Origin: Akkermansiaceae bacterium
Lineage (GTDB): Bacteria > Verrucomicrobiota > Verrucomicrobiia > Verrucomicrobiales > Akkermansiaceae
Assembly (NCBI GenBank): GCA_947491475.1
Contig: CANLKN010000030.1
Span: forward strand, 1 to 37,669
Direction of reading: 5' to 3'
Length of the DNA stretch: 37,669 bases
The notes under the pieces are model-generated. The model had not been told where the DNA came from. It did not search any database and saw nothing but the letters and a program-made list of their open reading frames with translations. Shown here one piece after another: positions 3,528 to 7,940 of this stretch. The translations under genes were made by a program, and so were the position numbers. Position 1 is the stretch's first letter; each line of letters opens with the position of its first letter.

Positions 3528-4988
3528 ATGGCAGGCGCGTTCAACACAAACAAACGCCGAAGGTCGCTTCTCTCGTGGTTCGGCATTCGGGATGTTTTCT
3601 ATCTGGCTGTGCTTGTGCTCGTGTGGCTGGCATCCGGCTTTACCGGCAAGGTGAAGCGCGGCCTTAAGGAAATTTTTGCTCCGGAACCGGTGGTGATCAC
3701 TGCGGATGAGGAGGACATCCGCCGCCAGATCGAATCGCGGCTGCGTGCCGAGATGGAGGAACAACTCGATAGGGAAATCGAGGCCATGAAAATGGCCGCC
3801 GCCGAAAAAGAGGCTGCGGAAGCGGCGGATGCGATGAAACCCGAACCGGCAATCGAGCTGACGCCCGACTCGGTCACCGACGTGCGCAAGTTGCGTTCCG
3901 GAATTCCATTCAAGAGCGAGGTGAAATTCGACAAGGGTGGCATCGCCTCGGTGGAGCGTGTGGATGATGATAGCTACACCGCATTCTATCAACTCTCACT
4001 GCGCGTGCCCACACCGGCCAAAACGATGGCTGAACTCGAAAAAACCAGCCCGGACCTCGCTAAAATCCTGCCGGGGCTTCCGGCGCTGATCGGCAAGGCG
4101 GAGGTTTCCCCGTGGTTCCACAAGCTCTATGAGAACAAAGTCGCCCGCATTCGACGCGACGCGCATTCGCTCAACGAGCTGCTCACCAAGCACAACGTCT
4201 ATGACTGCGAGACCATCCTGAATCTCCGCACTCCGGCAGGGCGGCCCGTGTTCTTCATGCAGGCCGAGATGGATGTGGTTTCAGACGGTTCGGACGGCGA
4301 CCGCCTGCCGGTGATGCCCGATGCCATCGTCAACTCCACCCATTATCAGCCGTTCACGAGTTATGGCTGGAAAAAAAGCGGCCCCACCCCCAATCCGATG
4401 GTCGCCGGCTGGGAAAAGCGCCTCGCCGGCGGCGAGCGCGAGCTCGCCGATCCCGCGACCACTGCCGAGCGCAAGGCATGGTTGCGCGACCGCATCACCT
4501 ATCTCAAACGCGGCATCGACGACCTCAAGGCCCGCAGTTTCCTCATCGCCGAGTATGATCCCTTCATCGTCATCCCGGTCAACCTGCTCACCTCGCGCGA
4601 CACCTTCGCACCCAAGGTCGGCGACTACGCTGTGGTTGTTCATGAAGGGAAAATCTATCCGGGCATCGTCGGCGATGGCGGGCCTACTTTCAAGGTGGGA
4701 GAGGCATCGCTGCGGATGGCTAGGGAGATCAACGAGAAATCATCTCCCTACAGCCGGCCGGTGTCCGATCTCAAGGTGAGTTATCTCGTTTTTCCAGGCA
4801 GCCGGAATCCCGAGCGGGGGCCGCCGGATTTCGTCCAATGGCGCGACCGCTGCGCCGAGTTGTTAGGAGAAATCGGCGGACTCGGCGAGGGTTTCAAACT
4901 TCATGTGTGGGAGGATCTGCTCAAGAAACCCGAGCCGCCGCCAGAATCTCAAGCGCCGGCTGCGGATGCGCAACCAGATACTCCTTGA
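3528..4988 (+). CDS. Membrane-anchored glycoside hydrolase family 75 (chitosanase-like) protein
   Basis: 486 residues. A basic N-terminus is followed by one membrane segment (about 22-39, [16 protein letters not shown]). A charged, coiled-coil-prone stretch rich in E, R and A follows at about 58-105, then a globular domain from about 185. The second half resembles bacterial GH75 proteins: [20 protein letters not shown] with acidic catalytic candidates, YQPFTSYGW, then [32 protein letters not shown] and LVFPGS. GH75 enzymes hydrolyse chitosan using an Asp and a Glu. The protein ends in a Pro/Ala/Gln-rich tail. The topology suggests an anchored enzyme facing the periplasm. Family assignment is from motif memory, and activity on chitosan is inferred. 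It starts 56 bp after hemW. Confidence 0.66.
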
Positions 4989-5031: not shown

Positions 5032-5814
5032 TTACAAGAATGGATTTGCCCGGCGTTCCTCGCCCAAAGTGGTGGCCGGGCCGTGACCTGGCATCAACAC
5101 AGTGGCATCCGGCAACGGGGCCAGTGCCTGGCGCAGATGGAGCAGCGCCTGCTGATAAGTCGCAGGCGCGGCGCAACCGCCGATCGATCCGGCAAACAAG
5201 GCATCGCCGGTGACAAGCGCCGGGACTTCTAGCCCTTCAATCAGGAAACCCAATGCCGGCGTGAAGTGCCCCGAGAGTTCCACCGCGCGAATGATCAGTG
5301 GCCCGCAAAACACGGTGGCTCCGGGCTTCATGGCGATGGTGCCCGGGATGTGAGTCGCATGGACCGGCACGTCATTTTTCAAAAGGTGGTCGAGCCCGCC
5401 GATGTGATCGCGGTGGCCGTGGGTGATGAAGGCGCGGTCCGGCAAACGTCTGCCGCTGGGATCAAAGGCATGGAGCAAATCACCCACCGAGCATCCCGCA
5501 TCGAACAAGACCGCTTCATTTCCCGCGTCCAAGCGCCATGCATTCACCTGTTCCTTGCCGAATGGCAGATCGAGCCGCCGGATTTGCGGCAACGCCAGCG
5601 GCCGGGGCTGATAGTCGGCATGCGCGGCGAAGGCTTCCGGGTTGAGGCCAAGCACCGGGGCCAGGCGGCGGGCGGTTTCAGCGCAAAAAGTGCCGCGCAG
5701 GAATGCGAGCACCGAGTGTTCCGTGATGCCGGCCTGCGCTGCGGCCTGGGCCGGTGCGAGCTGATGCCCGGCAAGGGCCTTGCGCAGCACATAGGTAAAA
5801 TCGTCTTCAAGCAT
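5032..5814 (-). CDS. Metallo-beta-lactamase-fold hydrolase with N-terminal HTH-like segment
   Basis: 260 residues from the ATG at 5812-5814. The metal-binding motif THGHRDHIGG (H132, H134, D136, H137) is followed by further ligand candidates in SGHFTPA, TGDALFAG and PGHGP, giving a glyoxalase II / MBL-type site for two metal ions. Residues about 5-65 (VLRKALAGHQLAPAQAAAQAGITE and following) look like a small helix-turn-helix, as in XRE-type domains, before the hydrolase domain. The substrate cannot be named; glyoxalase II-like thioesterases are one possibility. A longer in-frame start at 5865 would translate the REP-like repeat and is rejected. It converges with the GH75 gene, with 43 bp between the stops. 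Confidence 0.82.
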   Translation of the reverse strand: MLEDDFTYVLRKALAGHQLAPAQAAAQAGITEHSVLAFLRGTFCAETARRLAPVLGLNPEAFAAHADYQPRPLALPQIRRLDLPFGKEQVNAWRLDAGNEAVLFDAGCSVGDLLHAFDPSGRRLPDRAFITHGHRDHIGGLDHLLKNDVPVHATHIPGTIAMKPGATVFCGPLIIRAVELSGHFTPALGFLIEGLEVPALVTGDALFAGSIGGCAAPATYQQALLHLRQALAPLPDATVLMPGHGPATTLGEERRANPFL

Positions 5815-5824
5815 GATATGAGAT

Positions 5825-5957
5825 TGTAGCGGCGGTCTATGACCGTCGAAGCGAATGAGAAGCAATGTAGCGGCGGTCTATGACCGTCGAAGCCAATGAT
5901 CCGCGCAAAACTTCTTCATGATCTTCTCTGCCGCGGAGCCAATTAGCGACCGCTACA
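5825..5957 (+). repeat. REP-like intergenic repeat cluster
   Basis: A 28-base unit beginning TGTAGCGGCGGTCTATGACC occurs exactly twice, at 5825-5852 and 5866-5893, with a 41-base period; similarity continues about 6 bases further with one mismatch. Each unit contains an imperfect palindrome (CGGCGGTC-TAT-GACCGTCG, 7 of 8 pairs). At 5948-5957 GACCGCTACA is the inverse of TGTAGCGGTC, so the cluster is bounded by TGTAGCGG in opposite orientations. It fills the gap between two minus-strand genes. REP-like elements of this kind are usually dispersed through a genome and mobilised by RAYT transposases; none is in the window. Confidence 0.75.
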
Positions 5958-5963
5958 GGCATA

Positions 5964-7247
5964 TCAGCGCATGCGGTAGTAGCCGTCCGGATTGTAGAGG
6001 AAATAGACATCCTTGGGATCGAGGCGCGGCAGCCAGGCGTATGGCCTGCCATCGCTATCAATTTCCTCGGTGGGGGCGCCGGGGCGGCTGATGGATGGCG
6101 CGGTGGAAGGGCTGGCGCTGGCAGCCATGTCCGGGTTCCTGGTGAAGGAGGTTTCATCCACGCCCTGCACGATGTGATTCACCCACTTTAGCTTCTGCGC
6201 GTCTTCGCCGAACTCATTCCAGTCGCCACTCGTCGAGCGGGCATACATGCGCTTGATGAGTTCATCGGTGGTGATGCCCATTTTATCGGCGATGGGAGTG
6301 CCGAAGCGGAACCACCAACGCTGGCATTCCTCATGAAACTCACGCTGCTGGGTAAGGTTCATCTGGCCCATGACCTGAGCGCTGATCTGGTGGTGGAGGA
6401 TCACGGCGTTCGGATAAGCATAGGATTCCTTGGCCAGAGTGGTGATGGCGGCGGCCATCGATGCGGCGAAGGATTTGACGACCACGTGCACCGGCGCATC
6501 GCTGGACTCCATGGATTTGAGAATGCGGTATCCGGCCATCACCGAGCCACCCGGCGAGGAATCGATGACGATAAAAATCGGCAACTCCCGGTCCATGTTG
6601 TTCCAGTAGTCGATGCGATTGGTGATGAAGTCGGCAGTGGCGGGAGTGATCATGCCGTTAAGCGGAATGCGGCGGTCGGATATGACCAGCGTGCCATCTT
6701 CGCGCAGCGGGTTTTTCAAATAGACGGGTTCCGAATCGGCATAACTCTTGCGTTTTTCCGCAGTTTCAAAACGCGTGATTTCACCCTGCAGGCGGGTGAT
6801 TTCGAGTGAGGATTCGGTCTGAGCCAACTTGAGTTGGTTGCCGATTTTTTCCGCACGGACCTTGGCGAGCTCGTTTTCACGCAGCAGGCGTTCGCGCTCG
6901 GATTCCAGCTCGGAGAGTTCTTTTTTGAGAGCCGCCTGACGCGCGGCCTCTTCGAGCGCAAGCCGCTCGGTCATGAGTTCGCGCTCCAGTTTGAGGCGGG
7001 TGACCTCAGCCCGCATTTCGTTGGTCCCCTTGGTGAGGCGCTCGGCTTCAAGCTTGTTATCAATGGAGAGCGCCTCCTGCTCCTTGCGCTTGGCCGCAAG
7101 CTCGGGATCTTCGGGTTTTGCCGCTTCAGCGACTTTGGCGGCTTCGGCGATCTCCTCAGGTTTGGCGGTTTCGGCGGATTCTTTGGCGGGTGACCATGCC
7201 GCGAGGGCGAGGCTTAACAGAATGGCAGGTGTGTGAATCGGTTTCAT
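5964..7247 (-). CDS. Exported ClpP-like serine protease with long coiled coil
   Basis: 427 residues from the ATG at 7245-7247, chosen because it begins a signal peptide (MKPIHTPAILLSLALAAWS). Residues about 50-165 are almost entirely heptad-like E/K/R/L sequence, a long coiled coil. Residues about 185-362 resemble the ClpP/crotonase fold: IDSSPGGSVMAG, then the nucleophile motif KSFAASMAAAIT (Ser263), then NAVILHHQIS (His285 or His286), then TSGDWNEFGEDAQKLKWVNHIV with Asp342 as the third residue. The spacing is close to the Ser98/His123/Asp172 triad of E. coli ClpP. A tail rich in S, P and A follows. Unlike true ClpP it appears to be exported. The partner, substrate and oligomeric state are unknown. 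Confidence 0.75.
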   Translation of the reverse strand: MKPIHTPAILLSLALAAWSPAKESAETAKPEEIAEAAKVAEAAKPEDPELAAKRKEQEALSIDNKLEAERLTKGTNEMRAEVTRLKLERELMTERLALEEAARQAALKKELSELESERERLLRENELAKVRAEKIGNQLKLAQTESSLEITRLQGEITRFETAEKRKSYADSEPVYLKNPLREDGTLVISDRRIPLNGMITPATADFITNRIDYWNNMDRELPIFIVIDSSPGGSVMAGYRILKSMESSDAPVHVVVKSFAASMAAAITTLAKESYAYPNAVILHHQISAQVMGQMNLTQQREFHEECQRWWFRFGTPIADKMGITTDELIKRMYARSTSGDWNEFGEDAQKLKWVNHIVQGVDETSFTRNPDMAASASPSTAPSISRPGAPTEEIDSDGRPYAWLPRLDPKDVYFLYNPDGYYRMR

Positions 7248-7406: not shown

Positions 7407-7940
7407 ATGAAAACCATCATCTCGATCCTGATAGCGGCGGCATGCGCATCGCAGGCCATTGCGCAGAACGCGAATCCCACATCCACCTCCGGTGCGGAGG
7501 TGCTCTACCGCCAGGGACTTGCCGCGGAAAAAGCGGGCGACCCCACCGCGGCGCGCAGTGCTTACGCCGAAGCACTGCGCATGCATCCGGGGCACGCGAA
7601 TGCCCGCTACCGTCTCGGGGAGCTCAAAATCCACGGGCCAGTCATCGCCGCCAAAGGCCGGGAAGCGAAGTTCGGAGCGGTGATCGTCCCGGAATTCAGG
7701 GTCGATGAAGCATCCCTCGGAGAGTGCCTGGACGCACTCGCCAAAATTGTAAGCAAGGAATCCAAGGATGAGGTGAGTCCGAACTTCATCATGCAGGATC
7801 CCAAAGAGCAGCTCGCGGAGGCCAAGATCTCACTCAATTTGAAAGCGGTGCCCGCCAGTGCGGTTCTCAGATACCTGCTCGACCAATCCTCGGCCAAGGC
7901 CCGCTTCGACGAGCACGCGATCGTGGTTGCGCCGAAGTGA
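7407..7940 (+). CDS. Small exported TPR protein with secretin/STN-like C-terminal domain
   Basis: 177 residues with a clear signal peptide (MKTIISILIAAACASQAIAQ). One TPR-like helical pair follows: EVLYRQGLAAEKAGDPTAAR, then ALRMHPGHANARYRLGEL. The C-terminal half (EASLGECLDALAKIVSK, then ISLNLKAVPASAVLRYLLDQ, then FDEHAIVVAP) resembles the short beta-alpha-beta modules of secretin N-domains and STN domains. It is divergent from the ClpP-like gene, with 159 bp between the starts, so shared control is possible but no operator is visible. Function unknown; periplasmic location is inferred from the signal peptide. Confidence 0.72.
   Translation: MKTIISILIAAACASQAIAQNANPTSTSGAEVLYRQGLAAEKAGDPTAARSAYAEALRMHPGHANARYRLGELKIHGPVIAAKGREAKFGAVIVPEFRVDEASLGECLDALAKIVSKESKDEVSPNFIMQDPKEQLAEAKISLNLKAVPASAVLRYLLDQSSAKARFDEHAIVVAPK

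Follow-up and report, generated by a model that had tools for sequence, protein, structure and literature searches.

ClpP (peptidase family S14; PDB 6cfd, 6dkf, 7uvm) is the textbook cytosolic proteolytic chamber and needs an ATP-driven gatekeeper. SppA (family S49) shares the ClpP superfamily fold and uses a Ser-Lys site. The NfeD N-terminal and SDH ClpP-like proteases (PF25145, PF01972) are membrane-linked serine proteases of the same superfamily, and ClpP-related phage prohead proteases act without an unfoldase beside a helical scaffold. ClpX docks in hydrophobic pockets on the apical face of ClpP and the N-terminal loops gate the pore (PMC7112952, PMC9753991); two ClpP paralogues occur in several bacteria (PMC9753991). 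SppA has been described as a membrane protease that forms an octamer, cleaves its own C-terminus and has a partner in the membrane; K199A is its inactive form (PMC7568657).

We analysed 37,669 nucleotides of an Akkermansiaceae genome; this whole stretch is called the window below. One of its genes probably encodes an exported ClpP-fold peptidase that works without an ATP-driven unfoldase, a reading that can be put as a whole as an ‘envelope peptidase on a helical stalk’. The ORF assigned to the gene in the initial annotation is present, and its parts and its downstream neighbor are laid out as follows.

5964..7247, minus strand: whole gene of the putatively exported ClpP-like protein, 427 aa plus stop (ORF 5967–7247 plus stop; dN/dS 0.15–0.17 against four relatives)
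7182..7247, minus strand: signal-peptide-like N-terminal segment, residues about 1–22 (end point set by eye)
6741..7106, minus strand: long charged alpha helix, residues 48–169 (AlphaFold model)
6156..6692, minus strand: predicted ClpP-fold domain, residues about 186–364 (Pfam, PDB alignments, Foldseek, VIA-align and profile comparison)
6459..6461, minus strand: codon of Ser263, predicted nucleophile (75/75; aligned to the ClpP Ser)
6390..6392, minus strand: codon of His286, predicted catalytic His (74/75; aligned to the ClpP His)
6222..6224, minus strand: codon of Asp342, predicted catalytic Asp (73/75, Asn in two; aligned to the ClpP Asp)
5967..6047, minus strand: conserved C-terminal tail, residues about 401–427, of the LPRLxPxDxYxLYNPDxYYR type (core motif in 74/75)
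5032..5814, minus strand: downstream gene for a metallo-beta-lactamase-fold hydrolase, a conserved neighbor in close relatives

Sequence comparisons connect the protein to ClpP. The Pfam CLP_protease model matches residues 188–297 (E = 3.9e-14; 53.4 bits against a gathering cut-off of 20.2), as it does all 35 members of family alignment A1 (E ≤ 0.001). The models for the NfeD1b and SDH proteases give weak matches below their cut-offs (PF25145, 19.6 against 40 bits; PF01972, 17.1 against 31.3), PF01343 (S49) gives none at E ≤ 1, and TIGR00706 scores 22.7 bits against a cut-off of 155.45. Nor does the protein reach the NCBIfam cut-offs for ATP-dependent ClpP (PRK12553, 52.3 against 228 bits; TIGR00493, 33.2 against 308.6). 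In a PDB sequence search the best 60 of 101 matches are ClpPs; with the 35-row family profile the best E-value is 5.5e-15, and hhalign aligns the family profile to ClpP with a probability of 99.4% (E = 1.1e-21) and the triad columns in register.

The full-length AlphaFold model (28-row alignment as input; mean pLDDT 68.8) shows ClpP-like elements at residues 186–365, with pLDDT below 50 at 284–293 and 338–342, that is, around His286 and Asp342. A domain-only model (mean pLDDT 56.4) was set aside, and no fold search was made with it. Among the Foldseek matches listed for the full-length model are ClpP chains at E about 1e-10 and TM 0.66–0.78 by target length. VIA-align superposes the model on 7uvm (Z 18.6, rmsd 3.5 Å over 167 residues) and 6dkf (Z 18.4, rmsd 2.5 Å over 160); its best 50 rows are all ClpP, and the lack of SppA among them carries no weight. 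On this model of moderate confidence, the window protein has the ClpP fold. The ClpP-like domain of the initial annotation is thereby borne out: Pfam, profile and fold matches all lead to ClpP, and a fold outside ClpP/crotonase was looked for and not found. The likeness to S14 ClpP covers the fold over the whole domain, the triad in the same columns and the PGGSV motif. Unlike ClpP, the window family adds a signal-like N-terminus, a long helix at the N-terminal end and a conserved extra C-terminal tail; it also has changed docking positions, forms a separate 100/100 clade, and has Gly341 (75/75) where 20 of the 21 comparison rows have Arg.

In pairwise and profile alignments, Ser263, His286 and Asp342 fall on the nucleophile, His and Asp of ClpP. 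For conservation we kept 75 of 117 ORF hits, non-identical in their last 250 residues. Ser263 occurs in all 75, His286 in 74 (Pro in L040) and Asp342 in 73 (Asn in L012 and L015). The initial annotation had left His285 and His286 as alternatives within a triad whose order and spacing hold as described. We favor His286 as the catalytic residue because His285 is Gln in one of the 75 members, a paralog that retains His286; it is also His286, not His285, that aligns to ClpP. Ser263, His286 and Asp342 are thus the predicted catalytic triad, at ClpP positions and conserved among homologs, and proteolysis by the family is the activity that the sequence suggests.

A signal peptide had also been proposed, and a signal-like N-terminus is found in 73 of the 75 members by a crude test (ahead of the helix, a Met that is followed by a basic residue and by a stretch of hydrophobic ones). 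This test picks the best Met, contains no cleavage model and is suggestive only. Of the 19 ClpP-like comparison rows placed by the script one passes, and of 3750 shuffled N-termini 650 do; the shuffles are a control not exactly matched, as they start at the frame’s first Met and the family test at the best Met. Identical copies, and L030 and L046, whose open frames gave no Met start, were dropped from a table of 42 rows built from 58 ORF hits. A lipobox-like form is flagged in L088 (LMFAGC) and, more weakly, in L107. The window family has an A/P/E-rich linker, which is typical of exported proteins. We infer that the protein is exported by Sec to the periplasm.

Between this N-terminus and the ClpP-like domain, the AlphaFold model has a continuous helix at residues 48–169 (pLDDT block means of 80–93 for residues 61–150), and by a last-proline rule the helix measures 37–232 residues across the 75 members. 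In many fold alignments, for which ranges only were compared, the model from about residue 160 onward matches ClpP from residues 2–5 onward; the helix therefore appears to join at the site of the ClpP N-terminal loops. The initial annotation had described about 115 residues of coiled coil. The long helix of that description stands in the model, but its heptads do not: in the window protein the hydrophobic residues give little power at a period of 3.5, and 736 of 2000 shuffles reach its best peak. When the hydrophobic positions of eight groups were put through a Fourier test, power at 3.5 stayed below 0.5 in six; the remaining two gave 0.72 and 2.07. The top peak lies at 3.56–3.58 in five groups, between heptad and hendecad repeats (reached by 223, 96, 135, 753 and 67 of 2000 shuffles, so that two are nominally below 5% and three are not, before allowing for eight tests on groups related by descent), and at 3.20–3.24 in the other three (121, 424 and 939 of 2000). 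A classical heptad coiled coil is thus not supported; a long helix, possibly bundled, is the most that the data allow.

At the other end of the protein, 74 of the 75 members have the tail core motif D-x-[YWLFH]-x-x-[YHF]-[NDSE] in their final 40 residues, the sole miss being the frame-shifted L107. In L058, a 44-codon ORF (6091–6225) encodes the tail alone, between a membrane protein and a metallo-hydrolase, and overlaps the hydrolase start by four bases. Coupled translation could explain this arrangement, as could a function of the tail.

The positions at which an unfoldase would bind differ from those of ClpP. We take the pocket-lining residues of ClpP to be those of the E. coli Tyr62, Phe82, Met92 region. 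At the corresponding positions, 71 of 75 members have Val227 (Tyr in 19 of the 21 comparison rows), 74 have Ser, Ala or Gly at 248 (Phe or Leu in 20 of the 21) and 74 have Lys258 (Thr, Ile, Met or Leu in at least 19 of the 21); these 21 rows include one divergent row and one phage row. A fourth position, 225, is uninformative, since the ClpPs used for comparison differ from one another there. On this mapping, the sites corresponding to ClpP’s unfoldase-binding residues are altered in the family sequences. No ClpX-like ORF was found in the window or in 49 wide-flank loci (query, this genome’s own ClpX; control found), and a canonical tig-clpP-clpX operon lies elsewhere in the same genome. Altered docking positions and the lack of a ClpX-like neighbor would fit a protein that takes no unfoldase, but are not proof. 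The unfoldase independence claimed in the initial annotation gains from both and from an expected location outside the ATP pool, all of which bear on it indirectly.

The family is uncharacterized and is carried by a group of environmental bacteria. A full-length copy is present in 34 of 61 same-genus genomes, including the window’s own, and in 13 of 38 other genomes of the order; as none was found in 27 of the 61 genus members, some of them incomplete drafts, the gene seems dispensable. Across Verrucomicrobiota, 33 of 387 sampled genomes carry a full-length copy (E ≤ 1e-50), eight of them two copies. The remaining hits have much poorer E-values (1e-10 to 1e-15), and the ones that were fetched look by eye like ordinary ClpP. 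All sampled genomes of g21, one genus of the same family (20 listed), are without a copy. The 29 named contigs with the family are all from Verrucomicrobiota, strains of Luteolibacter and Haloferula among them, and one (L058) has the tail only. A plasmid search gave no match at 1e-10, and a viral scan no relative.

A maximum-likelihood tree separates 36 family rows from 19 ClpP rows by a 100/100 branch, with both sides long and flagged by the tree program, and its topology within the family follows host groups by eye. This tree was rebuilt with S49, phage and divergent rows removed and 36 instead of 44 family rows; in the first tree, which held those rows, the family side reached only 69/69, with branches of 4–10 changes per column. 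In L081, L082 and L083 the family occurs as tandem copies, of which the first copies form their own 100/99 branch and have degenerate tails; two diverged subunits may therefore assemble together. By part of the protein, dN/dS is 0.06–0.12 in the ClpP domain, 0.14–0.25 in the helix and 0.17–0.41 in the tail, and the ClpP domain is lowest in all four comparisons; the values are rough, with dS of 0.8–1.7 in most comparisons. Judged by these substitution rates, the family is under purifying selection, strongest in the ClpP domain.

Close relatives often have a cluster of tatC, a membrane protein, the protease and the metallo-hydrolase. Across 50 loci (the window and L058 included, several of them short), the hydrolase is directly downstream on the same strand in 14, a membrane-protein gene lies upstream on the same strand within 1500 bases in 30, and tatC does so in 15. 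The membrane protein has hydrophobic segments at its N- and C-terminal ends, and its gene immediately precedes the protease gene in 30 of the 34 genomes of the genus that have the latter (exceptions G000, G018, G020 and G023). In the genome that the window comes from, the protease and hydrolase are on one contig and tatC and the membrane protein on another, and G018 is split likewise; G014 and G031 have tatC, the membrane protein and the hydrolase without the protease. The membrane protein was rejected as an obligatory partner, being matched in 92 of 99 relatives (many weakly) with a full-length protease in 47 of the 99. This protein after tatC (L135, 1831–4052 for the pair) is uncharacterized, and its L054 homolog has no Pfam or NCBIfam match. 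By eye, the translated hydrolase lacks a signal-like start, so the protease and hydrolase do not form a purely envelope unit. Outside the order, the loci read did not show the tatC cluster; groups there have shared neighbors of their own by eye, e.g. the three loci L097–L099, which have their flanking genes in common.

How might such a protein work? After Sec export to the periplasm, the core fold would assemble subunits into a ClpP-like ring or double ring. The subunit helices, leaving where the ClpP axial loops sit, may come together as a stalk by which the particle is kept in the envelope, and which would let in only peptides or unfolded segments. The conserved tail could be a latch for assembly, or a peptide that is self-occluding or, like the SppA C-terminus, self-cleaved. 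We more tentatively conjecture a family, so far seen in Verrucomicrobiota only, of extracytoplasmic, self-compartmentalizing ClpP barrels, in which seven-fold long-helix bundles replace the axial gating loops to make an ATP-free, stalked envelope chamber with a C-terminal latch; we hold this extended form doubtful. The initial annotation had called an envelope-located ClpP-like protease unusual. Envelope members of the ClpP superfamily such as SppA are already known, and therefore the unusual point is the putative export of a triad-type ClpP-proper domain, not of the fold. Searches of one open-access library turned up neither a triad-type ClpP-proper domain with a signal-like N-terminus and long helix nor an exported ClpP, and, judged by their listings, no paper that appeared to deal with this family; public databases may well carry the family under ‘Clp protease’ names. 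If the reading is true, an exported ClpP with a changed docking surface and a helix-extended entrance would be a natural test of how a chamber is opened and fed without ATP, and the Verrucomicrobiota envelope would gain an unstudied protease.

By analogy, SppA is the closest working counterpart of the family; by sequence the family is not SppA. The two share an envelope location (predicted for the window family), a C-terminal segment that is possibly regulatory and a nearby membrane-protein gene, often directly upstream. The protein may accordingly be SppA-like in function: a small inner-membrane ring with an uncleaved signal anchor that clears signal or antimicrobial peptides, the helix being a spacer and the conserved tail a propeptide, for which SppA offers a precedent (PMC7568657). 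We regard this as possible but improbable, as the sequence is nearer ClpP than S49 by the PF01343 and TIGR00706 results above, the triad His and Asp are kept, the genome already holds two S49 members elsewhere, and the membrane neighbor is present also where no full-length protease was found. Less probable again is a scaffold with little or no catalytic activity: a helical protein of the periplasm that reuses the ClpP fold for assembly or peptide binding. Asn342 in two members, Pro286 in one and the persistence of a 44-codon tail-only remnant in one genome are what it would explain; the near-invariant triad (Ser263 75/75, His286 74/75, Asp342 73/75) and the lowest dN/dS in the ClpP domain in four of four pairwise comparisons speak against it.

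Descent from phage is unlikely to a like degree. A domesticated head-maturation (prohead) protease would account for five of the eight listed PHROGs families being head-maturation proteases (best 7.2e-12), for the NCBIfam Clp_rel_HeadMat match (1.4e-10) and for a tblastn hit (7e-7) in phage MMB025, to its head maturation protease. Better scores come from Pfam CLP_protease (3.9e-14) and PRK12553 (5.3e-14), though these are E-values of different libraries; the viral scan is without a relative, and in the first tree the only phage row had a long branch. No phage structural gene was found among the scanned window neighbors, and by eye no capsid or terminase gene was recognized among the neighbors of 18 relatives’ loci. 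The window family differs from ClpP-related head maturation proteases (NF045542, phrog_2976) in that no phage context was seen, and in its N-terminal helix and its signal-like N-terminus. We give very little credence to a cytoplasmic ClpP paralog whose hydrophobic N-terminus is an inward-facing anchor and which serves the canonical ClpX: the genome does have ClpX, and paired ClpP paralogs in several bacteria provide a precedent (PMC9753991), but the signal-like N-terminus in 73 of 75 members, the A/P/E-rich linker, the lipobox-like form in L088 and the altered docking positions all speak against it. Of these readings we prefer the exported peptidase that works without an unfoldase.

The scanned window neighbors include metallo-hydrolase, TPR, TruA-type, SOD, RmuC, radical SAM and GH75 proteins and one protein without a match. 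Between the hydrolase ATG (5814) and the protease stop (5964), a 23-base palindrome-bearing repeat beginning GTAG stands in two copies (5826–5848 and 5867–5889); with up to two mismatches it occurs at 36 places in the genome (none for a reversed control), and it is presumably a REP element. Divergent to the protease gene, 7407–7940 encodes a small TPR protein that looks exported and weakly matches STN (secretin N-terminus); among 88 loci it is present only in L001, the window’s own copy. The predicted protein at 3528–4988 has an N-terminal hydrophobic segment and a charged helix, and it matches glycosyl hydrolase 75 (chitosanase).
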